From Capitulum mitella (taxonomy: Eukaryota; Arthropoda; Thecostraca; Pollicipedomorpha; Pollicipedidae): DNA of 64,000 bases. Positions 32,482-56,800 of the stretch are shown in pieces (the stretch's first letter is position 1; every line of letters begins with the position of its first letter). The DNA lies in the NCBI GenBank assembly GCA_030062745.1, contig CP099849.1, positions 6,246,586 to 6,310,585 of the forward strand, written 5' to 3'. The notes under the pieces are model-generated. The model made no database searches, was not told the origin of the DNA, and saw nothing but the letters and a program-made list of their open reading frames with translations. The translations under genes were made by a program, and so were the position numbers.

Positions 32482-33082
32482 ATGGTGGCCTCCTACACGG
32501 GCGCGGAGGTGCGGCGCACTTTCATCGACTACTTCCGCGAGAAACAAGCGCACACGTACGTCCACTCGTCGTCGGTCATCCCGTTTGACGACCCCACGCT
32601 GCTGTTCGCCAATGCCGGCATGAACCAGGTAAGTGTTCCCATGGTCCGGTGAGACGCGGGCTTGGGGTGGCGTCTTCAAGCCGGGCAGATGCGCTGCACG
32701 ACGGTGGTAGTCGCATTGGATAATGCAATTGGGTAAATTGTGGACAGTTGAGCTGGCAATGTGGAGGGAAAGCCATTGTGGCTTTTTGCTTCGTTGGAAA
32801 CGGTGATGGCACGTTTTCAATGAAGACGTCGCTCCCAGCTTTGTCCAGTGCAGCTGCGGGCTTGGAGCGCGTGGTCGCGTCTGCCCCCCCCCCCCCGCTG
32901 ACCCCCCGATGCCGGGCCAACGTCTGACCGTGTTCCGGCCGCGCCAGTTCAAGCCCATCTTCCTGGGCACGGTGGAGCCGGGCAGCGAGCAGAGCCGGCT
33001 GGTGCGCGCCGTCAACAGCCAGAAGTGCATCCGCGCCGGCGGCAAGCACAACGACCTGGACGACGTCGGCAAGGACGTCTAC

Positions 33083-33113
<31 letters not shown>

Positions 33114-36100
33114 GGAGCTTCGGCGACTACTTTAAGGTCAGCAGGTCGGACGAGCTTTGGCGGAGGCTCCGATGAGCGCTCGGGCTGACGAGTATGAGCC
33201 TGGTTTCTAAGGCAGAAATGGATTTGCTTTTGACATGGAAGTGATGTTTTGCCGGATGGGTAAATTATTTATGTGGAAAAACAGACGAGAAGTGGCAGAA
33301 ACATCAGGCGTCCCAACAAGCTAGACTTATAAGGGCGGTAGTTTAGTGGTGGGTTGGGGAGGCGCGTCACATTTTTATGTTTTGTCCATCTATTTAGAGA
33401 AACATATAGTACAATAAAGGCAAAATTTTCGGTTTCGGGGCGGAACGGTGAGTGGGATGGTCGTTGGAATGATTGGTTCAAGCTTTGGTTTGGCTTTCCA
33501 GTGTTTCTTTCCATAGTGGAGGGTGTGGTTTTCATCTCTAATTTGCTGACCTTGACCCAACCTTGGCCTGAGTCGGTCTCAGGCTGGACCTTCCGGAGCG
33601 GTGCCACTTGGCCTTGTGAGCTCATAGCGGGAGTTACCGAATTGTGGATGGTGGTGCTTGGTGCAGTGGTTTGTGAGAAGAACTTGACCTTTCTTTGGCT
33701 TTTTGTCTTTCCTTCTTCCATAATTTCTCCAGCCCTGACTTTGACTGACTGTGGACTGTTTTTAGGGCTTATTCCTTCCTCTTGTTCCCTTGTTATTTTG
33801 CCTTCTCCTTTAGTTATTCTAAGGACCAGCGTAGGTAAGTTGAGCCGCCCAGCGGTTTGTGTGATCGGACATTTAAGATCATTTGGTCCTCCGGGCCGGA
33901 TAGGAATATTTCCCTGATAGCAATTTTGAACTTCGAGGTGTTCGGTACTCATTTGGAATTTGACCCCGGTATCGAGATTCATCTGGCCAAGTCGCACTTT
34001 TTTCTCGTCATCTTTCACTGGGAAAGATGAGCAAAATGGAGAAGTCGGCTAAGAAGCTGGCCGAGATTGTGGCCTGCCGCCAGCTGTTGGCAGAAGACAT
34101 TCGGGCTCAGGCTGAGGTCCTGGTCAGCTGCGATCGCAGTCAGTCTGGTAGATTGCTGCAGGAGATAAAGATCATGAAATCTTATGAGCTAGAAGTGCAG
34201 AACTCTTTGAAGCTTGTCAAAGGTCTGCCTTTAGAGCCCGACGAGTTAGCATCTGAGCTTAGAGAGCACAGGATGCTTAGTAATGTTATCATGCGCAGCC
34301 TGGCAGTAGAGAGTGAGATAGAGTTGGGGCTACAGAGGTCTGACTTGAATGGGGGGAGGGCCTGTGGAGAGTCCCAGCAGTTTGCCTAAACTTGATATAA
34401 AAAAGTTCAGTGGTGATCTGGAGGACTGGCCAGCTTTCCATGAGTCTTTCATGGCAGCTATTGGTAGCACTGGCCTGTCTGATATCCAGAAGCTGACTTA
34501 TTTGAGGTCACTGGTGGTTGGGAAGGCTGAAGATGTTGTTGCTGGCCTTCATCTGACAGGTGCAAATTATCCAGTTGCACTCTCGCTGCTGAAGGAGAGA
34601 TTTGGTAGAGAGGAGCTGGTTGTCAACTCGCATGTAAGAAAACTTGTCCAGATGCAGAGCATGGATTCTGATTCTCTTCCTTCACTGCAGACATTTCTGA
34701 ACAACTTAGAGTACCGCTGTCGTGCACTGAAGGCTCTTGGTGTGGATGTGGCCAGTCACGATTTGATACTTGCGCCCCTGGTTGAGTCAAAGATGGCTCC
34801 CAGTTTAGCTGTTCATTTCAACAGGCAGAGGTCAGACAGCAACCCCCCAACACTCAAAGAAATCATAGGCTTCCTGCGCAGTGAGGCCATGATCAGGGAG
34901 AAAATGGAATATGAAAACTCATGTGATGAAACAAAGCAGAAAAAGTCTCTAGGATCTGTACATGCCTTGACCACTGCTACACAGAAGTCTCCTCAGTCTC
35001 TGTGTGTGTTCTGTGATGGGAAACATCCCAGTTACAGCTGTGGGCAGCAGATGGGTGTAGATAAGCGCCTGGCTCTGCTTAAGAAAGCACAGGCATGCTT
35101 TCGGTGTCTCAGACCTGGCCACCTGTCTGTCAAGTGTCGGTTCAGAGTAAAGTGTAAGACCTGTGGAGGTATGCATCAGACTGTGCTGTGTCGTAAAGCA
35201 TTGCTCACTGGGAGCGATGCAGCATCAGCCACTATCCCAATGACTACCCCACCTCGTGGTAAGACTGTGAGTCTGCCTACATCTGAGGAGCAGGTGATAG
35301 TTGGCTGCAGTTCCTCTGGTGAGGCAAGTAAGTTTGTGTTGCAGACCGTGTCTGCTGTCCTGAAGGCAAACTCTGGAAGCCAGAGGGTGAGGATCCTCCT
35401 GGACACTGGGTCTCAGCGGTCTTTCATCCGTAAAGATGTGTCAGAGGCACTGGGCCTCAGTCAAGTGGGTAAAGAAACCCTGGTTATCAGTGGTGTTGGT
35501 GGTGTGCAGGCTGCCAGTGGTTCATCAGCTCACAAGAGAGTAGAGCTGAAGGTGAGTGGAGCAAAGCAGTCTCTTGTGATGCAGGCTCTGGAACTTGATC
35601 ACATCTGTTCCCCAGTGAATGTAATCCTGGGACAGGAGGTGAAAGAAAAGCTGGTAGCAGTGGGAATCTGTCTGCCTATTGGTGAAGATCTCGTGGCTAG
35701 TGAGGCTGTAGATGTCTTGATAGGGGCAGACTTCTACTGGAGTGTGGTGACTGGACGTGTCTGTAGGCTGGATAAGTCCCTGGTGGCTCTCGAGACCATA
35801 TTTGGCTGGATGGTGTCTGGATGTGTGGACAGTGTCTCCAGTCCATGTGCTGTGTCTGAGGCCACTGTGATGTTTGTTCACACGCAGAGCTGTTCTGAAG
35901 ACGCTGACTGTCAGCTGAGAGCCTTCTGGGAGATAGAGGCAGTGGGGATAAATGATTTAGATGAAAGCAGAAAGTCAAAGCTTGACAAGGTTACTGAGAT
36001 CACTTACAGTGATGGTCAGTATGAGGTGACCCTGCCTTGGAAAGGTACATCCAGGCCCCCAGCCAACTTTGAGGTGGCGAAGCGGCGTCTGGAAAAACAA

Positions 36101-39100: not shown

Positions 39101-42100
39101 AGACAGAACTGGGTCACTGGGATTGTAAAGCAGCTACTTACGGGACAGGATGGCAACACTCGCGCGGTCATAGTTCAGACCAAGAGTGGTACTCTAAAGA
39201 GAGCAGTGCAGTGTCTTTACTTTCTTGAGGGTGATCTTGAGTCGAATGATGTTGCGGCGCCTGATGTTTCTGCCGGGGGAGTGTGGAAAAACAGACGAGA
39301 AGTGGCAGAAACATCAGGCGTCCCAACAAGCTAGACTTATAAGGGCGGTAGTTTAGTGGTGGGTTGGGGAGGCGCGTCACATTTTTATGTTTTGTCCATC
39401 TATTTAGAGAAACATATAGTACAATAAAGGCAAAATTTTCGGTTTCGGGGCGGAACGGTGAGTGGGATGGTCGTTGGAATGATTGGTTCAAGCTTTGGTT
39501 TGGCTTTCCAGTGTTTCTTTCCATAGTGGAGGGTGTGGTTTTCATCTCTAATTTGCTGACCTTGACCCAACCTTGGCCTGAGTCGGTCTCAGACTGGACC
39601 TTCCGGAGCGGTGCCACTTGGCCTTGTGAGCTCATAGCGGGAGTTACCGAATTGTGGATGGTGGTGCTTGGTGCAGTGGTTTGTGAGAAGAACTTGACCT
39701 TTCTTTGGCTTTTTGTCTTTCCTTCTTCCATAATTTCTCCAGCCCTGACTTTGACTGACTGTGGACTGTTTTTAGGGCTTATTCCTTCCTCTTGTTCCCT
39801 TGTTATTTTGCCTTCTCCTTTAGTTATTCTAAGGACCAGCGTAGGTAAGTTGAGCCGCCCAGCGGTTTGTGTGATCGGACATTTAAGATCAATTTAGTTT
39901 TTCTGCAGGTAAATTATTTTAGGTTCATGTTGTGAGCAGTGGGATAACTTTGGTTAATCGGTCCAATCTCTTATGAGTGCGTCCTGTGGCAGTTTAGTGT
40001 ACAGTGACGCTGCTGTGTTTTTTTCTGACCACGCCCAACAACTTCTGCAGAAGGAGGTTTGCGCGTGGGCGTGGGACCTGCTGACCAACGTCTTCAAACT
40101 GCCCAAGGACCGTATGTACGTCACCTATTTCGAGGGCAAGCCCGAGGCCGACCTGGAGCCGGACCTGGAGACGAAGGGCATCTGGTCGTCACTGGGGTGA
40201 GTGCAGCAGCCGGCTGAGTGTCACCCAGTGACCAGGTGTCCAGCTGTAGATGTGGTCTCGGCAACGTGCCAGAGGGATCGTGCGGTCGGCATTTCAGATA
40301 ATTCAGACCTGGGCGGTGTACCACCTTTATCGTGATTCGTAGTGAGTGCGAGGGGACCTGGTCGTGAGCTCGTCCCGCGTCGGCTTCCACATCGTCTGAC
40401 GCGCCACTGTCGCCGACTTCAGGATCCCGGAGGAACGTATCCTGAAGGGCAACATGAAGGATAACTTCTGGGAGATGGGCGACACGGGCCCGTGCGGGCC
40501 CTGCACCGAGATCCACTTCGACAGGATCGGCGGCCGCGACGCCGCCCACCTGGTTAACATGGACGACCCGGACGTGGTCGAAATCTGGAACCTGGTCTTC
40601 ATCCAGTTCAACAGGTGGGCGATAGCCTGGATGCATGAATTATGTGTCGCAAATGGGATGTGTGAATAGAGTTTGTTTTGGTCCCGGCCGGTTTGACTGT
40701 GTTTCGCGTAGATACGAAGAAGTGCACGTACTTTATGTTGATAATGTCTTGCTACCTGTCGACGTGACTCACCCAAAGCAGCTGATTCTGTTCTCGTGTG
40801 CTGCCGGGAGTGCGGCTTCCGCCACCGCTCCGTTCGTGCTGTACGTGACGTGCTGCGTCTACAGGGAGACGGACGGCTCGCTGAAGCTGCTGCCGAAGAA
40901 GCACGTGGACTGCGGGCTGGGCCTGGAGCGCCTCGTCTCCATCCTGCAGGGCAAACTGTCCAACTACGACACGGACCTGTTCCAGCCCATCTTCCAGCAG
41001 ATCACCAAGGTAGCGGACCGCGCTCGGCTGCCGTGGACGTGTTGTGTCGAGTGAGGCTAGCCGCTGTTGGTTACGCAGCGGTAGTGGACTCATGTCTTTG
41101 TCAGTAACGACGCCGGGACACCTTGAGGTCTGGATGCGTGGTTCGGATATATCTTTTGATTAGATGTCCTTCGGCGTTCCTGTCTTTCGTGGTTTCTCAG
41201 TCCTCAAGGCCTTTGCGACTTAGTTTCTCGTCGCTGCGTTGCGTAACGCACTCGAAAGTCGAAAGCACGGGAAAGTCAAGAAATTCCGTAGCCATCCCGC
41301 TCAGCATTCTGCACAGCAAATGCACCGGTGCCTGACCTGAGTCCGTGACCTGAGCCCGTGGCCTGAGTCCTTGACCTGAGCTCGCTGACCTGTGGCGGGC
41401 CTCCGCCAGCTGACCGGGGCGCGGCCGTACACGGGCCACGTCGGAGCCGACGACACGGACGGCGTCGATATGGCGTACCGGGTGCTGGCCGACCACGTGC
41501 GCACGCTGACGATCGCGCTGTCGGACGGCGGCCGGCCGGACAACGTGGGCCGCGGGTGAGGACGGCGTCCCCCCCCCCGTCCCACCGCCGCCGCCGCCCC
41601 GGCTGGTGGTGGTACCGGAACCCGCCGGCTGGCCACCGACAGGGATGAGTGTTTTTCTTTTGGTGCTTGACGTTTGGCGGTCGTCGTTTTCGTGTTCAGT
41701 GACCCGTTTTTTAAACCGGTATTTCACAATTATTATATTATTATATATTATATAATGTTATATATTATTATAACATTATTTCACAATTAATTCCGTCTGT
41801 TAAAATTTGTCCAAGCTGTGTTGGTACGTTTTTAAGTGATCTTAAATCGTGTTCTGAGTTCTGTGATGTCTAACCAAGACAGTGGCTCCTCACAACACTG
41901 ATTTTCATGCCATAGCAAATGTATATTTTTGTGGCGAACGTCCTCCGTATCCGAGTCCCGATGATGCCGGTCCGGAGTTCCCTCGACATGGCTGCCCGCT
42001 GACGCCGACACGGCTGCCCGCTGACGCCAGGTACGTTCTGCGGCGGATCCTGCGGCGCGGCGTGCGCTACGCCACCGAGAAGCTGGGCGCCAAGCGGGGC

Positions 42101-42157
42101 GTGTTCGCCGCGCTCGTGCCCACCGTGGTCGAGGTGCTCGGCGACTTCTTCCCGGAG
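32482..42157 (+). CDS. AARS1: AlaRS exons 1-7, aminoacylation domain
   Basis: Exon 1 opens with ATG 32482 and the segment [20 protein letters not shown], typical of AlaRS. Exon 2 holds [17 protein letters not shown] and [18 protein letters not shown] (motif 2 region). Exons 3-5 carry [30 protein letters not shown] and GLGLERL (motif 3). Exons 6-7 carry MAYRVLADH and [14 protein letters not shown], the tRNA-recognition helices. All key class II residues appear intact. Introns other than intron 2 are short (about 225-480 nt). Confidence 0.93.
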
Positions 42158-45100
42158 GTGAGCGGGCGGCGGGGGCGGGGGAGGGAGGGATCAGGTTGGC
42201 TTTTCGAGATTGGGGCATTGTTGTTAAGTTTCGTTCAGTTGGTACGTAATGTGAAAGGTGGATGGTACGTGATATGCATTTTTCTCCTTTGAGCCCAGTT
42301 GTTGTACATGTAGTATTGGATACCCGCAGAATACTCTGCGGAGATAGTCTGAAACCGTCTTTGGAGGTATTTTTGACTGCTTTTGTCGGGAAATGCTAGC
42401 AGGATGCCGTGTGTGATGGACTGGTGTGATGTTTCGTTAATGATGAGTTCTTATTTTGTCCGTGACATGCAGTGTCATTGTGCAGTGTCTGGCGTGCCGT
42501 AGATGTCGTATGCCATCGGCGTCGTAACTCGTACGGAACATTCTCTGAGGTGCCTCTCGTGAAGTACCATAATCTGCCGTGTTGGACGTAGTTTTTGGTT
42601 TCCGTTTGTGATGTGCTTTGTGGCGAATCCCCTGCGATGTGTCTGTGACGTTCCCCGTGTGACGCGTGATGTGGCGTCCGTAGCTGAAGAAGGACCCGGA
42701 CACGGTGATGGAGATCATCAACGAGGAGGAGGCGCAGTTCTTGAAGACGCTGAACCGCGGCAGGACGCTGCTGGAGCGCACCATCGGCAAGCTGGGCGGC
42801 TGCAAAACTCTCCCCGGTCAGTGATGCCCGCGGCGGCCCCTCCCCCGCGGGACGGTCGCCCTCCCCCGCGGGACGGTCGCCCTCCCCCGCGGGACGGTCG
42901 CCCGGCGGTCGCGGCGAGTTTTGTGATCGATTGTGCCCGTCGAGATCGATTGTGGAGAGGTTTTGGTGTGCGCGCAGTTCACCAGGGTTGGATGTTAACT
43001 GATTTTTGGCGTTGTCGTTCGGGTAAGGTGATTGTCGTTATTTTGGGTGTGCGAGTGGCGTCCGCTGGTGTCTTTTACGCGCGGATTCGTTCCTGTTATT
43101 GTCATGACGCGTCGTTTGTGGGGAGTCGTCAAGCGTCGTTTTCGGTTCATGTGTGCGTTGGCCCCGAGAGCAGTTGCGTAGAAGGCTTGCTACATTTTGG
43201 TACTCCTGGACTATACCAGGAGAAACTACCAGGTCGTCCTGGTGTTCCCGACTGAAATATGGTTAACAGACCTGAAAGTTATCACGCCTACCAACGCGTC
43301 TGTTCCCGGTCGTGTGTGACCACGTCTGAACGTCGTCAGGCGACATTGCCTGGCGCCTGTACGACACGTACGGCTTCCCCGTGGATCTGACCTCCCTGAT
43401 GAGCGAGGAACGAGGGCTCGACATCGACATGGAGGCGTACGAGGCCGCCAAAAAACAGGCCCAGGTCAGTCCGGGTATGCCGCAGCAACAGTTATAGTGT
43501 TGTTTGGGAAATGCTTTTGTCTGTTGCTTCATGTGATGGCAAAATGCCTGATACCCTGTTTAGCTTTATCATGCGTTCTGGCTGGTTTTACATACCCATT
43601 TTTTATCTACCCATTTTTTTGGTTCAATTACCCATTTTTTATTATAATTCATGTAGAATGTCATGTAGCTTTTGTGTTCATGTTGTGCAGTATGGTCTGA
43701 GGGTGGGCTGAAATGTCAGGTTGCCAGTGGTTGTGTTTAAATGCATCAGAATGTGAGATGGTTCGTTTTATCTTGTTTTGCCAGTCACATCTCTGTGTAC
43801 AGTCCATGACATGGTGTGGTGTAGCTGCGTTGTGTGAAAAGGATCTTTCCTTTTGTTGATTCTGTGCACCTGTTGACCCCATCACAGCCCAGCTGCCCCC
43901 CCCCCCTCCCACCCCAGCTGATTCTATGGAGTGTTTCCTAACGCGACGGTGCGGCCGTTCCAGCTGATTTCGCAGGCCGGCGGCAAGGGCGTGGACGAGC
44001 AGATCAACCTGGACGTGCACGCCATCAGCGAACTGCAGGCGCGCGGGGTGCCACCTACCGACGACTCGCCGAAGTACGACTACAGCGCCCTCTCGTCAGA
44101 CCCTGACGCCGCTTACGGTACGGGACATCGGAGGTGGCTTGAAGGAGGTGTTGAAGCCATGGTGCATCCGTGGTACACGAGACGTTACCTGTCGTTGCTA
44201 GATTCAAGTGTCTCTGACCTGTTCTTGCTCTCAGTTTTGTTGGCGTGATTCCGCATTGTTTCCGTTAGAGGAAACGCCAAAACTCGTCTGTTTCGATGAA
44301 GATAGTCCCCAGTGTACTAATGGAAGCTGGTTGCCCGCTAGTTTCTTACGGGACCCGGTTGTTTTACGTCGGCGTCCATAAAACAAATGGTTGTACAGAA
44401 CCGGGCGATTGTCGTCTGTCCTTCAGCAGCGCATTTGTCTGTACTGCTATAGCATCTCGTTTGTCATCTCATTTTATGTTACTTCATGTCTAAAGTTGAC
44501 CGAGGTTTGCTGTTCCCCGGCGGCGACGTTGACCCGACTTGACCCGGCCGGCCTCAGTGAGCCCGGGAGGCCGTCGACTGCCGTCCCCGACCCCGTCTGA
44601 CACCCCCCCCCCCCTGGCAGAGTTCGGCACGTGCCAGGGCCGGGTGATCGCCCTGCGCTGCGACAAACAGTTCGTGCAGGAGGTGACGTCCGGCCGGGAG
44701 TGCGGCGTCCTGCTGGACCGCACGGCCATGTACGCCGAGCAGGGCGGCCAGATCTGGGACGAAGGCTACATGGTGAAGCACGGCGACGAGGTGAGCACGG
44801 CGTCGGCCGGGCCGCTCCGGCCGGGGCTCCGTACCGGTGCGGAGCGGCTGGGAGTTGGGATGGTGGTCGCGTGTGCCCGGTGGAAGGACACTGGTGATGT
44901 GGATGTTAAAGGCCTGTTGTGTGTGTTCAGTTTGCCACGAATGGTTTGCGTTCGGCCGTGAGTGGTGCTCTGAAAGCGAAACTGCTGAAGGACGCTGGAT
45001 GAAGGCACCGCCAGTTAAATTTGGTTCCACTTGAGGCTGGGAGGTAATTGGCCGTAAAAGATAAAGGACTGTGTTCGTATCCGCAGTTGGACGAGGCTGG

Positions 45101-48100
45101 AATAGTTGACACGAACGTGACCCATGCCCCCGCAGGAGACTGAGTTCACTGTGAAGAATGTGCAGGTGCGCGGCGGCTACGTGCTGCACATCGGCTCCGG
45201 AGAGGGCACCATCCGCGTCGGCGACGTCTTCGACATCTTCGTCGACCAGGTGAGCCGACTGCCGACAGGCGGCCGAGGAGACCGATTATCCTGAGCTGAG
45301 CTGACCTGAGGCTGTCTCAGCTAAATCGAGCCGAACCAGATCCAGAGTGATGTAATCGGAACTGTGCCTTCACTGCTGGGAATCAGTATTCGTGGAGAAA
45401 AAGCAGTATTATTGGTTTGCAGCGTTTTTTTTTCAACGAATGAAGTACTGATTTGATATTTCACAAGTTGCATGTGTATCGTTGGCTTAACATCACTGTT
45501 TGTTAAAAGTCGTTTTTATATGCGGGAAATAAGTCGGGTTGCGTGTTCTAAAAAAATGTTATATACTCATAAGCCGACAAGTCGGCTGGGCAGACCACGC
45601 ACCACTGCTGCACTCTGTCCTGTCATGGTATTTCGACTCTGGTCGTCTTTGTGGCTCCTGGCCTTGGTGTGAGCTGATCCCTCTTCAGTGACGTCCGTTT
45701 TGGCTCACCTGCCCATCTCTCCGCAGGATCGGCGCAAACTGGTGATGAACAACCACACGGGCACGCACGTGCTGAACTTCGCGCTGCGGCGCGTGCTGAG
45801 CGCCGAGGCCGACCAGAGGGGCTCGCTGGTGGCGCCCGACCGGCTGCGCTTCGACTTCACCAGCAATGTGAGCGGCTCGGCGGGCTGGCGACCGATTGTG
45901 TGCTGTTGATGCGTGTGTGCTTGTGTTTGTGTTTGTGTGTAGGAGGCGGGAGCAGGTGTTGGTGTTCGTTGGAATGTGACCCCCTTAGCCGGACGTACGA
46001 ACAGTGGTGCTGCTTGTCTGTGCACTCGAAGGTCCTGGTGCTAGTTGGCTTGGTGGGATGTGTTTTGCGAGCATGCAACCCCACGGTGTGACGTCACATG
46101 TGATGCCGCGGGCGCACGCCGTTCCTGTGGTTAAGGACAGGTGGGAGTGGCTTGTCGCGTGTACTAATGTGTATTATTGTCGTTATCTATGGGCGCCTAT
46201 CTTGCCGTTGCTTTATTGTTTTGTTTGGAGTGTGTGTATTGCCAGGTACTCGACCCTAGGCCTTGATTGTCATGGGAACACTCAGGACATTGTTGTGAAG
46301 CAGGCTGTATGAATCATACATAATGCTTCACGACTCTGTCACATTCTGTTACCACTCAATGTGATAATGTGTTGGGTCTGAAGCTCGCCTTAAGCCAGCA
46401 GTCGGTCGCGTCTCTGCAATGTCGCGCTGTTCGCGGCCGGCGAGCGGATTCATTAGCCATCCATAACCTTCCGCCTGCAGCACGCCATGAAGCCGGACCA
46501 GGTGCGTCGCACCGAGCAGGCCGCCAACGAGCTGATCGCCAAGAACGGCGAGGTGTTCGCCAAGGACTCGCCGCTGGCGCTGGCCAAGTCGATCCAGGGC
46601 CTGCGCGCCGTGTTCGACGAGACGTACCCGGACCCGGTGCGGATCGTCTCCATCGGTCAGTAGGCGAGTCGCGGTATCCTCCTGCGGTCAGGACCGGTCC
46701 TGTTACCGATAAAGGGACTCGGCTGCTCCACCCGACACCCGTCTGATCTTAATCGATTGTATAGCATCATTTTGTCCTTCACTCATCCTTGCATTTTCAT
46801 TTATACCGTATTTTTCGTGTTATTTCCGCATCGTTGAGTGATTAGTCGCGTCCTCATGATGTCTTCCTCAGCCACCTCGTCCACAGACGCATCACTGCCT
46901 TCGTTGCCGCGTGACTGTTTCCCCTGCCTACACGTCCTACGATTGTCCGTCTCCTCGTGTTCGCCTCCGCCCCGGCACCTCCTTACCACCCTGGCCTCCG
47001 GCCAAGCATGTCCGTCTGTGTTTGACGTCCATGGTTGACGTCCGTGTCCTGACATCCGTCGCCTATCTTCGTCCGCATGCGGGTCGGCGGCCTCTGCGGG
47101 CGTGCGTCGTCCCGCAGTAGCCACCGGTCGCTCCGTGTAACGCTGGCCGGTCTCGCTCGGCAGGCGTGCCCGTCGAGCAGCTGGAGGCGGACCCGAGCGG
47201 GCCGGCCGCCACCGAGACGTCGGTTGAGTTCTGCGGCGGCACCCACCTGCGCCGCGCCGGCCACATCGGCCCGTTCGTCATCGCCTCCGAAGAGGCCATT
47301 GCCAAGGGCATCCGGCGTATCGTGGCGCTCACCGGGCCCGAGGCGCAGAAGGTGCGGGGAGGGGGGGGGGGGGGCTGTAGCGATGGGGCCCTTCAAGAGT
47401 GCGGTTTTGTTCTTATCGTGAGAGTGTAATAATTTTGGATTTTCTCTTGCCGAATGGGATGGATGCAGTGTGCTTTGTGTTGAAGAGTTGAGTAGCATCG
47501 CCCTGACGGGAATGACGGTGTGGTAAGAGTTCTTTTTTCTTTTTACAAGAGAGACGGTTGTTGCATTGGGCCGATGGTAAGAGTTCTTTTTTTAACAAGA
47601 GAGACGGTTGTTGCATTGGGCTGCATGTGCATTTGTTAAGTGTTCCGGTTTTCCTTCGAAATGACATACACAAGCTGCTACCGTAAACTGGCCGTTAACT
47701 GTTCCGTTTTCCTGCCTGACCTCAGGCGCTGAACCGGTCCGCCGCCCTGGAGAACCGGCTGAACACGCTGGCCGAGCAGGTGGCTGACCCCCGGAGCCCG
47801 CTCAGCAGCAAGGAGCTGGTCAGGAGGATCGTCGAGCTGACCGACGAGATCTCGCAGGCCACCGTGCAGCAGTGGAAGAAGGTCGGGCACGGACGCTTTC
47901 CGGCCGCCGTTCGGGCTCCTCACGGCTTTGTCGCGACTGAACACGCAGTCTGTCCCCGTCGCACTGTGTGTTTAATTTGTGCGATCAACTCCCTGCTCTT
48001 TAGAACTATTGGAAGCTCATATTTGTACTATGCGCGTGTATGTGCCCCTGATGCTTGTTTTATACGAGGGGATGTTATATCTGTCAGGGAAGGAGGGAGT

Positions 48101-51100
48101 TACTTTATAGTTTTCCCGGCTCACTCGCTGCACTTCCCCGGCCAGGATGAGCTGCGGACGGCGCTGTCCAAGATGAAGAAGCAACTGGATGACAAGGACA
48201 AGGCCGCCAAGGCAGCCGTCATGACCTCGGTCGTGGAGGAGGCCAAGGCGTTCGTCACGGCCAACAAGGACCTGCCGTGGGTGGTGCGCCAGTTCCACGC
48301 CTACTCCAACTCAAAGGCAAGCCGGCGCTTGGGCTGGGGCGGACTGAGATGGCTGGCCGTCTTCGGCTGCTGATGAGTGCTGTGCTGGATAGTCCGTCCG
48401 TGCTGATTGGTCAGTCGGGACGCCGACGGGCCAATCAGCGCGGTGGACTCGATTTATGGTGTCTCCCCTGCTGGACTGGTTCGTGTGGTTGGGCTGTGTC
48501 CAGCTCTGGCGTGGGGTGTGCTGTATTCTGACCAGCACGTTTGCACGGCTTCATTGCCGCTGCGATCGCACTCTCAGGTCTGCGATGCGCCACCGCGGAC
48601 TGGTCCCGTTGCCCGAACCGAGCGCGTTTTCATGTTGAGTATGCCTCATCTCGTTCGTTTTCTAAACGAAAGGCTACTTACGTGATTTATGCGAAGTTTG
48701 TAAGACAGAAGAATTGCAGTTCAGTCGTCCGACTTGCACTGTTCCTATCCAGATTAGTCTTTCCGAGTGTCTGGGTCGCCGCCCGTCTGCCGTGGGTGTA
48801 GTTGTTATCTGCCCCGTTCGGCGGGTCGCCGCTGTCCGGCGCGGCCCGCGCTCCTGTCCGCTCGTCTGGCCGGTCCGGCCCGCGGCAGTGACGCGCGCCG
48901 TCGCCGCAGGCCCTGGACGCCGCGCTGAAGCAGGTGAAGGCGATCGCGCCGGAGATGGCCGCGCTCTTCCTCTCGGTGGACGAGGACGCCGGCAAGATCG
49001 TCTGCCTCAGCGCCGTGCCGAAGGTGAGTGGTCGGAGCGGCCTTGTCGGCCGGGCGAGTGGGTCGAGCCCACACACTCGGCACGTGTAAACAGTGTCCGG
49101 TTTCCGGTGGCTTGAGAGGAGGCCGCTGGCCGTTTGTTTTAATTTTGTTCGACTGGACCGGTCCTGTTTTGTGGCGCGCGGTTCGGCTCGGGCTAGGTTC
49201 CACTCTGAGCAGCTCGAGTCGGTTCAGATTTTCCCGTTCCTGTTCAGTCCAGTCTAGCCCGTTATCCGTGCGTCTTGTTTCGTATGATGGGACTTACAGG
49301 ACAGACCTCGAGGTCGGTTGAGCGTTCGTTCTGTGAGCGTGAGTAGCAACTAGCAGGTGCTATTCCGTGCCTCCAGACCAGTTGTGTGCCTTCTCCGGGC
49401 GCGACTGGTGTCTGTCCGTGGCGCGCCTGGCCGAAACCGGACTCCGCCGCCTCACTGGCACCGCGGCCGTCTGCTCGCAATGAATCGCGACCCGCGTGTG
49501 GCCGCGGGGCCGCCATTAGGCCCGCGACAGGCGCCGCTCGTGGTGCCCGGCCGCGGCCGTTGCCAACGCTTTGATCACGGTCTCGTTTGACGTCGGTCCG
49601 CGGCCGCGGCGGAGCGACTCGATTGGACCGGCCCACCTGGGTGTCGTGGCAGTCGGGCGCGGCGGCTTTCATGTGCGCGACACGGCCCGAGCGCTGGCGC
49701 CGCGCACGGTTATGTAACGTGGCGTTAGGTTGCGTGATGACGGGGTTTGGACTGCCGGTGTTCGTTTGACGACGGCCGCCCGCCGCCCGCCGCGGAGTTG
49801 GGTGGCGTGCCGGCGCTCGTCCTTGATATTGGCGATTCATTGTGGCCTGACCCGGCTCGGCTGGGAGGGTCTCAGAGGTCTTTTGTCTTGCCTGATCTGT
49901 GCTGACCTTAGGTGAGTATCGTAGAAATCCCTCCCTTCCTCAGGTAACATGAGCCAACTGTTGTCGGCCCCGGCCTGATTCCGGAAGCTTGTCCCCCGAC
50001 GTGACGCAACAGGACCTGACCTGACCTGACCCGATCCAACCCGACTCGACTCAGTCTGACCTGGCATGCCGTGACGTGGCGTGACCTGACCTCACCTCTG
50101 CTGACCTCGTCTGGCTGTGCCCCGCAGTCGGCACTGGCGGCCGGCCTGAAGGCCAACGAGTGGGTGCAGCGTCTGAGTCCTCTGATGGGAGGCCGCGGCG
50201 GCGGCAAGCCGGAGTCGGCGCAGGCCACCGGCACCAACACGGACGCCCTGACCGCCTGTCTGGAGGCGGCCCGCCAGCACGCCCGCGACAAGCTCGGCAA
50301 TGACTCGCAGCCGAAGGAGGTGAGTGGGAGGGCAGGGGAGGGGAGAGGCATGGGGCAGACGGATGGAGAAAGGCGGGAGAACGGGAGACAGCGATGAGCT
50401 GGCGATGGAGATGGGAGAATGAAAGAGGGTCGTTTGGACCTAAATATTTGGAGAATGGAACCAGTTGGGATGGTTGACGGGAGTGGAGGGAGGTTGGCGG
50501 ATGCGAATAGAACTTGGCAAACGAATCGGTCGAAGTGATTGGGGAATGTGGAGAAAAGGTCCTGCACGTTTGATAGATAGGGAAAGATTGTATCGCTCAA
50601 TTCGTTAGCGCTTTGAAAATGTAATTGTCCTGTTCATATGCGTGTAGATCTGGAGGTTAACAATAGTCCCTCACGTTCCCCTCACGGCGCTGGTCCGTCC
50701 GTGTCCACACAGCGTCGCCTCGTCCTCACCAGCCTCGCTCCCCAGGTACCGACCGCCGGTGTCGGCAGCGGCCCGGCGCCGCCGCCGGCCCCCGCCGCCG
50801 TCCCCGCCGACGGCCTCCTGCTGCTGGCCGGCGCCGGCGACCCGCGCGCGCTGCCCTGCCTGATCGCGGCCAGCTACGCCGGCCGCCGGCTGCCGGTGTC
50901 GGACGGGCCGGCGCCGGCGGACGCGCCACTGGGCCGGCGGCCGGCGCTGCTGACGCCGGACGGCCCGCTCTGGGACGCGGGCGCCGCCGCGCTCTACCTG
51001 GCGCCGGAGCAGCTGCGGGGCGGAGCCGCGCCCGCCGGCCAGGCGGCCGTGCTCGCCGCGCTCTTCCAGGCGGCCGAGCTGCGCCAGCTGGTGGCCGGCT

Positions 51101-51390
51101 GGCTGGCGCCCGCCGCGCCGCGCCAGCTCGCCGAGGCCAGCCGCCAGGCGGCGCTGCGCCAGCTGGAGCGGCTCGACGCCCACCTGCGCGACTGCACGTA
51201 CCTGGTGGGCGAGCGCGTGACGCTGGCCGACGTGGCGCTGTGCTGCGCGCTGGTGCCGGCGTTCGGCGGCGCGTTGGGCCCGGCGCGCCGCCGCCGCCTG
51301 GTGAACGTGACGCGCTGGTTCTGCACCATCGTGCACCAGCCGCCGGCGGCCGCCGTGCTCGGCGAGGTGGTGCTCTGCGCCGCCGACTAG
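32482..51390 (+). CDS. AARS1: alanyl-tRNA synthetase with C-terminal GST-like domain, 20 coding exons
   Basis: This class II enzyme charges tRNA-Ala and edits mischarged Ser/Gly. Exons: 32482-32628, 32948-33136, 40051-40196, 40423-40614, 40865-41009, 41410-41555, 42031-42157, 42684-42816, 43340-43464, 43964-44117, 44621-44790, 45136-45249, 45727-45867, 46481-46655, 47164-47351, 47726-47881, 48146-48316, 48910-49023, 50128-50319, 50746-51390. They total 3570 nt (1189 aa), and every junction keeps phase. Residues 1-975 align end to end with human AARS1 (968 aa) from memory. Residues 976-1189 are an extra eEF1-gamma/ValRS-type GST-like module. Motif 3 is GLGLERL (242-248). The editing zinc site is His606, His610, Cys725 and His729. 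No mitochondrial presequence is seen, so the product is cytosolic-type. Intron 2 carries a young BEL/Pao element, and intron 17 uses a GC donor. Confidence 0.93.
33272..33881 (+). repeat. 5' LTR of the BEL/Pao element
   Basis: 610 bp, TG...CA, containing an AATAAA hexamer near 33412. It is essentially identical to the 3' LTR. Confidence 0.92.
34349..39334 (+). CDS. BEL/Pao polyprotein open frame
   Basis: A long frame of 1661 codons holds, in order, the rest of Gag with CCHC-type knuckles (about residues 215-290), the aspartic protease (near 350), reverse transcriptase with a YVDD core (near 770), RNase H (about 950-1060), and integrase with its zinc-binding and catalytic DDE regions (about 1250-1450). 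The order and the YVDD variant fit BEL/Pao. The amino-terminal part of Gag lies just upstream, from about 34027. The end of the frame runs into the 3' LTR. Base composition is near 50% GC, unlike the very GC-rich host exons around it. Confidence 0.9.
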   Translation: MGGGPVESPSSLPKLDIKKFSGDLEDWPAFHESFMAAIGSTGLSDIQKLTYLRSLVVGKAEDVVAGLHLTGANYPVALSLLKERFGREELVVNSHVRKLVQMQSMDSDSLPSLQTFLNNLEYRCRALKALGVDVASHDLILAPLVESKMAPSLAVHFNRQRSDSNPPTLKEIIGFLRSEAMIREKMEYENSCDETKQKKSLGSVHALTTATQKSPQSLCVFCDGKHPSYSCGQQMGVDKRLALLKKAQACFRCLRPGHLSVKCRFRVKCKTCGGMHQTVLCRKALLTGSDAASATIPMTTPPRGKTVSLPTSEEQVIVGCSSSGEASKFVLQTVSAVLKANSGSQRVRILLDTGSQRSFIRKDVSEALGLSQVGKETLVISGVGGVQAASGSSAHKRVELKVSGAKQSLVMQALELDHICSPVNVILGQEVKEKLVAVGICLPIGEDLVASEAVDVLIGADFYWSVVTGRVCRLDKSLVALETIFGWMVSGCVDSVSSPCAVSEATVMFVHTQSCSEDADCQLRAFWEIEAVGINDLDESRKSKLDKVTEITYSDGQYEVTLPWKGTSRPPANFEVAKRRLEKQVDRLQKTPGLLQLYNEKVQSLVSDGYAEFLGDSMEPVADGHYLPHRAVVREQSATTKLRIVYDGSAKCKGRSSLNECLMPGPNLNAKLFDLLLRFRCGEIAICADIKEAFLRVKLSEKDRDFVRFLWVEPSEIDQEPLRFKEYRMRVVVFGLTCSPFLLAATMQHHFARLEELYPDTVQKLKTSFYVDDLIVAVDTVEEGLKLYHESLKVLGDANMELRKWQTNSAELASEFGDKSLEVVRLDSNEQKLAVSKVLGLEWDRETDQFQFAVADWCDDFEFVPFWTKRKILSWCSKIFDPLGFLGPFVIRAKLLMQELWQVGVEWDEPVPAAIVDQLLGWLREINLIRTVRVSRYLFSQARRDDVRVHMFCDASQSAYCAVVYVVSPGQRGKLVASKTRVAPLKKLTLPRLELMAALIGARLAQKVCGLLDLPLSVCRYWSDAQIVLHWVKGSSGRFKPFVSNRVEEIHSLSNPAQWSYCSTSENPADLGTRGLSMAKLVSTDLWWHGPSFLMSGSVGDGHDEVLVNVDDSLEETSRPELKAETQNLVCPVYAVSQVENPILNLARFSSLDRVLRITAYCYMFVDKCLKRCSRTEVHLSAAYMARAKTYWIRKAQADAFCDEVEGLSRGELSVRSKLAPLNPMMDNDGLLRVGGRLDRSELSYENKHQIILPHKARYVELMVMNLHLKLLHAGVRDVMVELRQQYWVPRLRQVVKRIIHGCSVCRRFAARPFTTPTSQLPDFRVTKCAVFDVVGVDFAGPVYFRESQEKGYICLFTCAVTRAVHLELVTSLKVASFLMCLKKFIGRRGLPSVIVSDNARTFKAAANALDNLWDLVDSEEVQQFCASRSVKWDFIVDRAPWWGGFWERLVAAIKSPLRRTFAGKSLTKEEFEVVLCEIEGILNSRPLTYVYSDHQDGEPLTPGHFLSGKRLLGIDRPVQEQKDSTNIPLSDHFRSLEIQRDVFWKYFSKEYLPELSLSRQATETGKMRRIRVGDVVLISDSTGRQNWVTGIVKQLLTGQDGNTRAVIVQTKSGTLKRAVQCLYFLEGDLESNDVAAPDVSAGGVWKNRREVAETSGVPTS
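39282..39891 (+). repeat. 3' LTR of the BEL/Pao element
   Basis: 610 bp. It is followed by the ATTTA target duplication and then the remaining original intron up to the exon at 40051. Confidence 0.92.
42684..47351 (+). CDS. AARS1: AlaRS exons 8-15, linker and editing domain
   Basis: Exons 8-10 encode the helical/linker segments ([42 protein letters not shown]). Exons 11-15 encode the editing domain that hydrolyses Ser- and Gly-tRNA-Ala. It includes [27 protein letters not shown] with zinc ligands His606 and His610, and [11 protein letters not shown] with Cys725 and His729. All four ligands are present, so proofreading should be intact. Borders are canonical GT-AG with consistent phase. Confidence 0.93.
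47726..50319 (+). CDS. AARS1: AlaRS exons 16-19, coiled coil and C-Ala domain
   Basis: Exons 16-17 give the dimerising helices ([22 protein letters not shown]). Exons 18-19 give the C-Ala globular domain, ending [30 protein letters not shown] and then [10 protein letters not shown], where human AARS1 stops a few residues later. Exon 17 ends at a GC donor (TCAAAG/GCAAGC, 48317). Exon 19 has no stop and ends at GAG/GTGAGT (50320). If that donor were not used, translation would add about 25 low-complexity residues and stop at 50397. Confidence 0.92.
49980..50120. repeat. CTGAC-type simple repeat in AlaRS intron 18
   Basis: Imperfect CTGAC/GTGAC units stand just upstream of exon 19. A similar short run (CCTGAG/TGACC) lies at 41330-41400 before exon 6. 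Confidence 0.5.
50746..51390 (+). CDS. AARS1: terminal AlaRS exon encoding a GST-like domain
   Basis: The exon starts after CTCCCCAG in phase 0 and encodes 214 residues ending at TAG 51388-51390. After a Pro/Ala linker, residues 998-1065 resemble the thioredoxin-like half of eEF1-gamma and ValRS ([31 protein letters not shown]). Residues 1075-1185 resemble GST_C, including [15 protein letters not shown] (1126-1140), NVTRWF (1162-1167) and AVLGEVVL (1178-1185); the last two are especially like vertebrate ValRS. No catalytic glutathione-binding residue is evident, so a protein-protein docking role is likelier than enzymatic GST activity. Alternative: a separate small gene starting at ATG 50638, in the same frame. 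The lack of a stop in exon 19, the strong donor and the matching phase favour fusion. Confidence 0.75.
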   Translation, partial: VPTAGVGSGPAPPPAPAAVPADGLLLLAGAGDPRALPCLIAASYAGRRLPVSDGPAPADAPLGRRPALLTPDGPLWDAGAAALYLAPEQLRGGAAPAGQAAVLAALFQAAELRQLVAGWLAPAAPRQLAEASRQAALRQLERLDAHLRDCTYLVGERVTLADVALCCALVPAFGGALGPARRRRLVNVTRWFCTIVHQPPAAAVLGEVVLCAAD

Positions 51391-52380
51391 CCGCCGGACG
51401 GCCTGCCGGACCGACGCCGGCCCGGGTGTTATTTATTGTGGCCGGCCGGCTGGTGTTTGTCTCGGCGCGGTGCCGACGCTGTCGGAAGGGTGTGGTGCTC
51501 AACCTGGTGATAGGAGGGCGTCTCGGTTTCGATACATTGGAGGCAGACAGCAGTGCGTTTCCTGCGGCTTTAGTCCCGCTTAAGAGTGGAAAGACGACTG
51601 GGCACGACGGTCCCGATGTGGGTGCTTTTGATTTGTCAGATGGTGATCGGTTATTGACACAGAAAGAGTCCAAAGACAGGGTCAGGTGATGTTTATTGAG
51701 GGTATCAGCGATGCGAGGTAATGCCCGGTCTTGCTTGCCAAACATTCACGGTCACCGAGCATGACGAATTGGAAGGCCCTGGGGATGGGGGGTGGCAACA
51801 GAACGAAACAGAATTCCCAGCATCGCCAAGTAACTAGGTGAGCGAAATGATACATTATTAAATGGATCATTTGACGTTTAAGAACCAATTGCATCGGCCA
51901 GACATATTTGACCACTTATCGAATTAAGGCCTTTGGAGCCTTTTAACTTTCCCGAAGGCAGCTTGTCATGGAAGGGAAGACAAGCCTATTCATTCGAAGA
52001 TGCCCAACGACGTTCAGCACACCGCTGCAACAAAGGACAGAGTCCCTCATGCCGTCCATTCACTTTCCTGTGTTTGTACGACGAGCACGACGCAGTCCCA
52101 CAGGCAACGAGTTAATGAATGAAAAAGAGTTGTATTGTAATATGTACAGTATGGAATTGGACATGGAACAACAGTGAAATATGCCGTACAGCACCGGAAA
52201 TAAGCACGATAACGGCTATCGGCATATAACGCAATATCACAAGCTGGGGTTTCGGCCGTCGGACACAACCGTGCTCCAAGTCTATTAAAATTCAAAACTT
52301 GTAACATGAATTCTAAGTGCTATAAAGGCATGGCAATACCAAATGTCTGTTTTATCCTGACTGCGCTAAAACATACTACC
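51391..52380. other. AlaRS 3' UTR and following spacer
   Basis: GC-rich for about 60 bases, then balanced. No sense AATAAA occurs in the first 400 bases; the first candidate is ATTAAA near 51857. No further coding exon is seen. Confidence 0.4.
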
Positions 52381-52389
52381 GCGGGGCAC

Positions 52390-53280
52390 GCGCCTCGACC
52401 GGAACAGAAGCAGTGTTGCCTAGCGTCTTCGAGCCCTATGGGTGCGCTAATACTGCGGCGGCACGGCGGGCGCCGGCCGGGCGTGCCAGTGAAGGGTTCC
52501 GCCGGCGGCGGGGGTGAGGGCGGCGTCGGGCCGGCCGCCGCCGCCGGCGCTGGCCCGATTCCCGGCGCCCGGCTGGAACGCCGGCGACGCCGAGAGGAGC
52601 GCCCCTGGCGCGGAGCGCGCCGCAGCCGGGCGCCCCGTCGCGGGCGCGCAAGCGTGAGCGGCGGACCGGCCGCTGCCTGGAATGTCGCCAGCGGGCGCGG
52701 CGCCGGCCGGCCGCCGTTGAGCGTCGGCGCCGGCCGGCCGCGGGCCGCGCACGCGCTCTCGCGCCGGCGCCGCTAATCTCCGAGTCCGTAAGTGGCGCGC
52801 GGCCGCCGCCGGCCCGTTTGATTCGACTCGCTGCTATTGCTCGCGGCGCCGGCGCGCCGCGCCCGTTGAGCTGCGCGCTCCCGCCCCCGCGCGCTCGAGT
52901 ATCACATGCGGCGCGGCCGACTCGCGCCAAATATCACCGTCCGGCAGCCGCGCGCACTCTCGCGCGCCCGCCGCGCGCGGGCGGCGCGCCTCACGAGCCC
53001 GCCAAAACGGGCCGCCGGAGAACGGGCGGGCCGTCTGTATAACAGTGCGCGAACACGGGGCCGCGTCGTTGCGACTCGCGCGCCGCGCCTGCAAACGGTG
53101 CGGGCGGCGCGCCGCGGAGCGTAGTTCGGTCGGCCGCCGCCGGGTGGCGCGCGGCCCGGTTCGGGCCGTCCGGAGAGCAGCGACACGCGGGGCAAACAGT
53201 GACTGCGCGTTGAGCGGGTGAGGGCGCCGCCGGGCCGAGTCTTGACCGCCGGGCGCCGCGCCGCCGGCCGCGCCTCTGCC
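52390..53280. promoter_or_regulatory. CpG-rich island, possible promoter
   Basis: About 0.9 kb of extreme GC and undepleted CpG, full of GGCCGG and GCGCGC. Long frames are open on both strands, as expected for such composition, and none resembles a protein. It could be the promoter or first exon of a gene whose other exons I cannot identify. Confidence 0.35.
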
Positions 53281-53284
53281 GCAG

Positions 53285-53700
53285 CTGGGCCTGCAACAGA
53301 GGCGGGACACGTCAGACGAGTCCGCAACAGAGGCAGAACAGATCGGCCGGGCCTGCGGCAGAGGCAGAGCAGGTCAGCCGGACCTGGAGCGGAAGCAGAA
53401 CAGGTCAGCCGGACCTGGAGCGGAGGCAGAACAGGTCAGCTGGACCTGGAGCAGAGGCAGAACAGGTCAGCTGGACCTGGAGCAGAGGCAGAACAGGTCA
53501 GCTGGGCCTGAAACAGATGTACAGCTCAGCTGGGCCTGTAGCAGATGTATCTGCTGTATCTGCCGAAGACAGGAGACGGTTCAGCGAGCCTGAAGTAGGT
53601 GATGATAGGTCAGTGAGCCTGCAGCAAGAGGAAGACAGGCAAGCTGGGCCCACAGCAGAGGTCAGCCAGGTCACCGGGCCCGGAACAGATAGACCATTTG
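53285..53700. repeat. 31-bp minisatellite
   Basis: The word CAGGTCAG recurs at 53370, 53401, 53432, 53463 and 53494, spaced exactly 31 bases apart. The unit resembles GCAGAACAGGTCAGCTGGAC plus 11 bases. Outer copies are degenerate. 31 is not a multiple of three, so the frames across it are not coding. A different CCGGAAAGGTGAGCC-type repeat follows to about 53880. Confidence 0.85.
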
Positions 53701-53899
53701 TTCACGGAACACAGCGCACTCGCACGCCGAACCTGAGACGGAAAAGGTCGCGTTACATGGGCGGATGATGGAGGGAGGAATCGCGTCCGGAAAAGGAAAT
53801 GTCGTGTTGGACCCGGAAAGGTGAGCCAAAGCAGGGAAAGGGTGATGTCGGAACCGGAAAGGTGAGCCTGGGCGAAGAAAAGGTCGCGTCTCCAAGGCC

Positions 53900-56800
53900 T
53901 GGGAGAAGGAGAGCACGCGTCAGCTGTGTGGCATGTGGGCGCCACCGGCAAAGTCGGGGTCAAACGACCACGAAATGTCTGACATTCCTGGTCGGCGACG
54001 CAGTAAATAACCCGGATTTCCGCCAGGTGTCGCGTTGCGAACAAAGCAGCCCATCCTTTGCCCTACGTTCCGGAGGGGGAATGCCTTTCAGAATTGACGC
54101 GATTAGGATGCATCACTGGCTACTCCTATCAGCTACTAAAAGCTTTAAGCCGTTTAAAGATTCACGGCACTTCTGTCAGCTTTCTCACCGTACCAAAGGC
54201 CCAGAAACGTTGACAATGAAACCGTCACTTTTGTTCGCTGATTTTCGGCCCAATGCATGAAAGTTATATTTTACTCGTGTGCTTGAATTCATACAAGGCC
54301 GTGCAAGCTCAAGTCGGCGTCAGGCCGGAGATAATAGTGTACGCTTGTTTTGCCGCTGAGCAACACCAAGCCGCTCGCTCACTCAAAATGTCCTGGTAAC
54401 GACAACAGGACCCAGGCACGGACTCCTCCTCCAGATCGGCTTGGTACGTCATCATGCTGCTGGCCTAAGTGAGTCACTACAGGAAGGCGTCAGGTTAGCG
54501 CCACCCCTGTTTTTCAGCCTCCAGTTTTCAGCCGACGCCTGGAAACGGGGACGCCGGCTGCCCATCAGCTGGGAACGCATCAGGCTATATTTGAACCATG
54601 CCGGGCCGCCAACACAGCAGTCCGGTCTCCAGCGACGACACAACGCGCCTGTGACGTCGCCGACGAGCTGGTGACGTCACCGCTGGGTAATCTGGGCCGA
54701 CGGGTGGCCTTGCAGGCGCCCGGAAACGTCACGTTCCTACACTGACACGCGCCAGCGGCGGGGTCCAGACGAGGTGCCGAGACAGATGTTCGAGACACGT
54801 ATGGCTAACGTCTAGTTCCTAACGGAGACGGACAGCGGAGATGGAGGCAGGAAACGACGCTCGCTCGGCAGCACCAGATGATGTCGGGCTGCAGCCAGAT
54901 CAAGACCAGGGCAAGGTCGGCCCGGCGCTCGAGACCTGGCGACCTAAATGCGAAAGGTTTGATGACGTCAGTTGGGTGCAAGGCAGGGCAAAGGATGTAC
55001 CTCTGCCGGTAGCCAACGGACAGCACCTCGTGTGCTACGCGATGTGTGAGCGTTCCTTTGGCGTGCACTTCACTGAAAGCCGCTACACTCCGTCAGACCG
55101 AATCATCGCAGGAGCTCGCATTTTAGTGGGAAACACGGTTTACAGGATTTGGGAACTCGGATTTTTATGGCCGACCCTCGAGAGGTAACACATAAGTGGG
55201 CTTTGCACAGGGACATGAAGAACCGAGGGCTGACCACCAGCACGTGGCTGACAATCTCGTGAAACTGCTAACCATCATCCGGCCAAGGCCGCGCCAGCCG
55301 CGGCTTCCGCTGGCTTTGTTGGCGGTCGCAGCCGGTCGGCAGGTCGCCAGGCGTGACCTGTTGCTTGTTTGTCCGCCGGAGCGCGCCGCAATGGAGCGTG
55401 AGCTCGCGTCGAAAGCCGAGCCGACGCCCGGCACCGCCACCGAACCGCCCTGGCGATTCTGACGGCGTCGTCGGGCGCAGCGCCGGCGCTACGTCGGAAG
55501 GCGCTCGACTGGACTGCACGCAGGCATGGCGGACCGAAACCGGCGGGAAGAAGGTGGGGGGCACCGGACGCCATTCCCCACACTGCGGGCTGGGCGATGT
55601 CTGGTGCGACGGCGCCATGAGCTCCAGGAAAGAATGCCGTGGCGGACTGACGCACATCGGGGAGACGGAGCGGGAAGGACTGAGCACAGAATAACGGCGG
55701 GCTGAGGACGTCAAGGTGGGTGCACTGAGAGCCTGGGAGATGGATTCCTGGGCTGAGCCTCCGTGATGCGGCGAGGCGGATGAGCCGAACTCCCGGAGGG
55801 GGCGTCTTCCCCAGGAGCGCCGTGGTAGTGGCCTGGGACGCGTGGCTAGCCCGCACCGCGTCCGAGGTGAGGCTCGAGGTTCTCACAGCGTCACGTGGTC
55901 GGACCTGGCGCAGATGAGATGCGGTGGCGGGCCAGCGGTTCCGGCATGCTTCCGCCGGCAGCTGCGGTTTCAACAGCGCCCAGTGTGGCGCGTCGGCAGT
56001 CGGCAGACGCCGGAAGTGGTGCGGGTACCTACAGACCACAGACGCCTGCCCACAGGCCGGGTGTGCGTCGTTAATGGGGCAAGGAGCCAGCCGCCGACGA
56101 GGCTGCAAGTTTCTTGACCTAGAGCCTCCGAGGAGCTGAAACGTGATATCCCACCGTGCTGCGGAACACTCCAAGTCAAATGAAATGCTCTGGAACGAAA
56201 GCGCAATCAGAAGCTGGATCTGCGACGATGAACGGTCATAACCCGCGCCGCGTTGCCCTGCACCAAACGTCGACTACTGCGCGGAATGCTTGGTTCAACA
56301 CGTGCATCGACTCAGACTTGCTAAATACGTGTAATTATGGAGGTCCAAGCTTCATTCGACGCACACCGCGTATTTGTCTTTTCCAGTGGCGGCTCCACAA
56401 CTGCCAGTCCGTCCGGCCATCCCAGCATCCGCCCGCGGCCGACAAGAGGGCCGAACATCGGTCCATTTCGATATGGTGGCCTCCGAGCGGCGGCCGTTTG
56501 GAAGTCCGCCTCATAGACTGCCGGAAACGGCACCAAACCGCGCCATGAAACAGTCGCAGCCCTGAACAGTGCATGGAGGAAGGCCGAGCTCTTGCTGAGA
56601 AGCAACAACAGAGAAGTCCTCCGTCAAGACAGGTTCTATCACAATTTCAGGTCCTTGACTAACACGCCAAACTAAACCACATGAACGGTTGAGAGCTGTG
56701 CGGTTTATGGAATCCGAAACGAATGGAACCGTTTTTCAACGTCGCGTGTCTGCCGCGAGGACGTCCATAGCGACGCACGTCTTCCTGCACCCAACGTTAC

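Follow-up and report, generated by a model that had tools for sequence, protein, structure and literature searches.

Whether the alanyl-tRNA synthetase (AlaRS) gene of the barnacle Capitulum mitella runs on into an exon encoding a glutathione S-transferase (GST)-like domain, and what such a tail would do for the enzyme, is the question raised by a 64,000-nucleotide stretch of its genome (hereafter the window). At the sequence level, an AlaRS exon is confirmed to be joined in phase to a C-terminal GST exon. The gene probably encodes a cytosolic AlaRS made as one 1189-residue protein, with a GST-like tail derived from eEF1-gamma that would dock it in the eEF1 complex.

The AlaRS exon at 50128-50319 ends in ...LGNDSQPKE without a stop and closes in phase 0 on the donor GAG/GTGAGT, which is among the best consensus matches of the gene's donors; reading through past 50319 meets a TGA at 50395-50397, 25 codons on. 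After an intron of 426 bp, the acceptor CTCCCCAG lies directly before 50746, and the exon 50746-51390 is open in phase 0 down to a TAG at 51388-51390. Rereading the sequence thus bore out the two structural claims of the earlier note, namely a stopless AlaRS exon with a phase-0 donor and, 426 bases on, a phase-0 GST exon ending in a stop. The G+C content at third codon positions is 0.98 in the GST exon, like that of the AlaRS exons (0.86-1.00, on preliminary exon boundaries), and the residues at the join are conserved in public proteins, reading QPKE-V here and QPVE-V in Pollicipes and Amphibalanus. That the GST exon instead belongs to a gene of its own or reflects faulty annotation, and is not joined to AlaRS in the mRNA, is barely credible. 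An in-frame ATG does stand upstream of the acceptor, at 50638, and for C. mitella the splice from 50319 to 50746 is a prediction from genomic sequence, two points for separation; against it, two other barnacles have the join at the same residues of their proteins, one copepod transcriptome carries AlaRS and eEF1-gamma in a single frame, and the Pollicipes protein lacks the residues that 50638-50745 would code. Nor does a poly(A) word interrupt the stretch from the AlaRS exon to the GST stop, the only AATAAA or ATTAAA on the + strand of 50001-54000 being at 51857 and 52284, both beyond that stop. The overall G+C content of the GST exon (50746-51390) is 82%, higher than in the preceding four AlaRS exons (61-72%).

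The + strand of the window holds a complete cytosolic AlaRS gene of 20 coding exons, from 32482 to 51390, whose features are as follows:
32482..32628, +, AlaRS exon 1, with ATG in ACCATGG and donor CAG/GTAAGT
32948..33136, +, AlaRS exon 2
40051..40196, +, AlaRS exon 3
40423..40614, +, AlaRS exon 4, catalytic core
40865..41009, +, AlaRS exon 5
41410..41555, +, AlaRS exon 6
42031..42157, +, AlaRS exon 7
42684..42816, +, AlaRS exon 8
43340..43464, +, AlaRS exon 9
43964..44117, +, AlaRS exon 10
44621..44790, +, AlaRS exon 11
45136..45249, +, AlaRS exon 12
45727..45867, +, AlaRS exon 13, motif HTGTH (presumed editing site)
46481..46655, +, AlaRS exon 14
47164..47351, +, AlaRS exon 15, motif CGGTH (presumed editing site)
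47726..47881, +, AlaRS exon 16
48146..48316, +, AlaRS exon 17, followed by the GC-AG intron
48910..49023, +, AlaRS exon 18
50128..50319, +, AlaRS exon 19, last part of C-Ala (DHHA1), stopless, donor GAG/GTGAGT
50320..50745, +, phase-0 intron separating the GST exon from AlaRS, free of AATAAA/ATTAAA
50746..51390, +, exon 20, linker and eEF1-gamma-type GST-like module, residues 976-1189, TAG stop
51857..51862, +, candidate poly(A) signal, first ATTAAA past the GST stop

All but one of the 19 introns are GT-AG; the exception is GC-AG, its donor lying at 48317. The predicted spliced product is identical to the Pollicipes protein P0001 at 1057 of 1185 aligned residues (89%), with 7 gap columns confined to the linker or the extreme end; P0001 matches tRNA-synt_2c, tRNA_SAD, DHHA1 and TIGR00344, and through this identity the class II core, editing and C-Ala domains are recognized in cytosolic AlaRS order. 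HTGTH at residue 606 and CGGTH at residue 725 are present, which we take to be the editing-site motifs HxxxH and CxxxH. Intron 2 harbors a long terminal repeat retroelement that we read as BEL/Pao-like (33272-39895, with a 1661-aa open frame at 34349-39334); its end repeats (~33272-33884 and ~39282-39895) are 99.7% identical across 614 columns, which suggests a recent insertion. Upstream of AlaRS, at 27609-28094, an open frame resembles a SENP-type SUMO protease, as read from the sequence with no search made.

The GST-like module forms the last ~190 of the 1189 residues, behind a flexible Ala/Pro-rich linker. Its exon matches GST_C at 9.4e-13 and human eEF1-gamma at 8e-24, eEF1-gamma being the best match by both sequence and predicted fold, while EEF1E1 is the second-best PDB protein by sequence (E 5e-8). 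The synthetase therefore carries a GST-like domain, as ValRS does, but at the C-terminus (residues 976-1189) rather than the N-terminus. The module remains alignable across three barnacles, in which the linker varies from 26 to 49 residues; identity to Pollicipes is 149/193 in the module and 846/906 in the AlaRS part, and when aligned with eEF1-gamma the barnacle module shows short gaps, chiefly within its thioredoxin-like half. A full-length model of the Pollicipes protein was mediocre (predicted local distance difference test score 70.0, predicted template modelling score 0.43, 20 rows) and shows only a low-confidence linker at 977-992. The EF1G domain (PF00647) of eEF1-gamma gave no tblastn match in the window, and a remnant of it past the GST stop was rejected. 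A ValRS-type origin of the domain was set aside, though not formally excluded, as the ValRS rows stand apart in trees; of the label "eEF1-gamma/ValRS-like" given earlier to the module, the first half is upheld by score, whereas kinship with ValRS is unsupported.

Genome-wide searches covered the 477-Mb assembly of 16 contigs, one of which, C11, contains the window. Apart from itself, the GST exon matches a single locus, at 50%, on C9, which is an eEF1-gamma gene: several exons found by tblastn together span nearly the whole protein, identity to Pollicipes eEF1-gamma is 88%, and this is the sole genomic site of EF1G. Since the AlaRS GST part is a single exon and eEF1-gamma has several, a retrocopy origin of the GST exon would fit. 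The cytosolic AlaRS itself is single-copy. Its last exon has one match in the genome, and its core exon finds itself, a 54% match on C7 and a weak match on C2 (E 0.067); the C7 locus, also matched by tRNA_SAD, is taken as mitochondrial AlaRS, and a second cytosolic AlaRS was rejected on these results.

Beyond C. mitella, residues 760-1129 of the fused product used as query recovered 70 proteins, 15 of them AlaRS plus a GST part, and the Blattella eEF1-gamma part recovered 52, of which 39 were of this kind; with six proteins common to both searches, 48 distinct public AlaRS clusters carry the fusion, a figure that does not define the true distribution because only word-sharing candidates were scored. 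Carriers include, among crustaceans, Pollicipes, Amphibalanus (two proteins) and Homarus; among cockroaches, orthopterans and Timema, Blattella, Periplaneta, Diploptera (partial, GST_N only), Anabrus, Gryllus and two Timema species; and, among Hymenoptera, Dinoponera, Vespa, Bombus, Colletes, Hylaeus, Anthophora and Habropoda. Both GST and EF1G are found on AlaRS in Blattella, Periplaneta, Anabrus, Gryllus and copepod-like rows, and the GST part only in barnacles, lobster, Hymenoptera and Timema. Fifteen fused rows are open frames 1,387-1,413 residues long whose contigs, at 4.3-5.0 kb, have the size of mRNAs, and P0008 comes from a Neocalanus flemingeri transcriptome assembly (GFUD, as given in the available part of PMC6105596). 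Thus, other arthropod AlaRS proteins do bear the domain, as the earlier note had proposed to look for, and its fusion is real, but the suggestion that "this lineage" recruits AlaRS was too narrow, the clusters being spread over several pancrustacean groups. A simple rule is nevertheless contradicted by 55 of the 70 proteins from the fused-product query, for which precomputed Pfam assignments show no GST; AlaRS without a listed GST includes those of flies, fleas, a caddisfly, spiders, a springtail and termites (one as isoform X2). Stand-alone eEF1-gamma also occurs in six of the fusion-bearing genera (Pollicipes, Amphibalanus, Periplaneta, Anabrus, Homarus and Diploptera), so the fused copy is an additional paralogue there. 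Separately, the nematode protein P0099 of Aphelenchoides fujianensis, named isoleucyl-tRNA synthetase, combines GST_C and EF1G with class I synthetase domains and is either another synthetase-eEF1-gamma fusion or a gene-prediction error.

Sequence comparison favors a single origin of the GST part, and the fusion is old in pancrustaceans. Into the GST tree went 26 fused rows, representing the window and 25 of the 48 public clusters, together with 29 stand-alone rows, of which 26 come from the best 120 of 2655 matches and three from the Blattella-query search; seven of 62 prepared rows (two ValRS, P0099, P0072, P0097, P0013 and P0014) were omitted. A quick version held 58 rows, 24 of them fused, four fused rows being absent because they lacked a motif. 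The labels Cop and Hym on some tree rows are guesses, and the label Calanus denotes P0008, from Neocalanus flemingeri. All 26 fused rows form one clade against the 29 stand-alone rows at 98/96 (bootstrap not fully settled), reaching 100 in the Shimodaira-Hasegawa-like approximate likelihood-ratio test (SH-aLRT) when barnacles or copepods are removed. Single clades uniting fused and stand-alone Hymenoptera (p 0.009), or copepod fused GST with two stand-alone rows (p 0.017), were rejected. The proline of an LLPxF/Y motif occurs in 46 of 47 fused rows (46 of 48 clusters plus the window entered the count, P0003 lacking the motif and P0016 not being entered; the exception is P0014), compared with three of 120 stand-alone rows (the best of 2655 matches), from Apolygus and Adelphocoris; it may be an old state, because P0099 has it too. 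At the two strongest of the columns picked without the barnacle rows, all three barnacle fusions share the state of the fused rows; at several weaker ones they do not.

Several results pull the other way. On a doubtful alternative, AlaRS and eEF1-gamma were fused repeatedly, with one or more of these events in copepods or barnacles, perhaps via a lasting gene neighborhood. In the phylogeny, support for the fused clade drops to 42 once ValRS rows are included. A grouping of barnacle fused GST with barnacle eEF1-gamma is not rejected (approximately unbiased test, p 0.286), and when barnacle and Homarus fusions are the only ones in the set, these four rows join four stand-alone rows at 95 SH-aLRT, their nearest relatives by path being barnacle-type eEF1-gamma; the barnacle case is thus undecided. 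In the EF1G tree, built with 18 of the 27 fused clusters having EF1G (P0094 left out), copepod-type fusions group with two stand-alone rows at 100/97, and a single clade for all fused EF1G is rejected (p 0.002). The GST and EF1G parts of copepod-type fusions (P0008, P0009, P0079 and others) differ in their nearest relatives, as would follow from gene conversion with stand-alone eEF1-gamma; the conflict would be explained by such conversion of the copepod EF1G part, or else by a second origin of the fusion in copepods. Chances look about evenly balanced for a fuller scenario: AlaRS would have captured a whole eEF1-gamma copy in an ancestor shared by most crustaceans and insects and become an eEF1B subunit, an independent arthropod counterpart, for another amino acid, of vertebrate ValRS-eEF1H, with the tail later trimmed to a GST hub (barnacles, lobster, Hymenoptera and Timema), lost (flies and others) or gene-converted in its EF1G part (copepods).

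As to function, gene structure, homology, predicted fold, wide conservation and a separate true eEF1-gamma gene are established, and a tethered docking module on AlaRS would be the simplest reading. The module would bind the partners of the eEF1-gamma GST domain, namely the N-terminal domains of eEF1B exchange-factor subunits, or another GST module; through its flexible linker it could hold AlaRS in the eEF1 complex, near eEF1A recycling, where Ala-tRNA might pass from the docked enzyme to eEF1A. In this way, the module probably links the charging of tRNA with alanine to its hand-over at the ribosome, and it is probably not needed for charging itself, because most AlaRS lack it. The docking partner and channelling are inferred, and the literature yielded no interaction data for an arthropod AlaRS, a point against docking; recruitment to an eEF1 or synthetase complex, as first suggested, stands as the best inference from fold and homology. 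It is unlikely that the module ties AlaRS into the multi-synthetase complex, through the GST modules of AIMP2, AIMP3, EPRS or MetRS, rather than to eEF1B: that complex is assembled by GST modules of MetRS, EPRS, AIMP2 and AIMP3 (EEF1E1), according to the accessible text of PMC10452860, and EEF1E1 is the runner-up noted above, but sequence and fold are both closest to eEF1-gamma and the fullest fusions have EF1G too. Rather less likely still is a stability or dimerization element or redox sensor in place of recruitment; eEF1-gamma GST domains homodimerize and the rice protein has weak GST activity (same portion of PMC10452860), yet the gaps of the barnacle module fall mostly in the thioredoxin-like half and this role has no direct support.

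A literature search on AlaRS-GST or AlaRS-eEF1-gamma fusions and their setting found no description, most subscription journals being outside its coverage, and public records of the fused proteins are named alanine--tRNA ligase, a plain name beneath which a widely conserved domain gain is hidden. The fusion is rated as an addition to the known GST-tethered synthetases. Its significance lies in the fact that the GST domain of ValRS, and with it the ValRS-eEF1 link, is reported as probably limited to deuterostomes (in the section available of PMC4394549), and that the AARS Online domain table, in the part available, gives GST for CysRS, GluRS-E, MetRS and ValRS, AlaRS not being among them (PMC11580382); a mosquito survey names GST for MetRS in its accessible portion (PMC8665550). 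If true, a covalent link between synthetase and elongation factor would make tRNA channelling directly testable in bumblebees, cockroaches and crickets. MetRS, GluProRS, CysRS, AIMP2 and AIMP3 likewise bear GST-like assembly modules on charging machinery. C. elegans MetRS also has an assembly-factor domain at the synthetase C-terminus (p43-like; extract of PMC4394549), although both the domain family and the synthetase differ. With eEF1-gamma (EEF1G) itself, the barnacle protein shares the GST-like domain, and the AlaRS of cockroaches, orthopterans and copepods carries both GST and EF1G, whereas in the barnacle the domain sits on AlaRS without EF1G and the true eEF1-gamma gene lies elsewhere in the genome. 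A parallel in function would be vertebrate ValRS, whose N-terminal GST-like domain ties a synthetase to eEF1 in eEF1H (PMC4394549 and PMC10452860, in part); the barnacle case, read from sequence, involves another synthetase, the opposite protein end and another animal branch.
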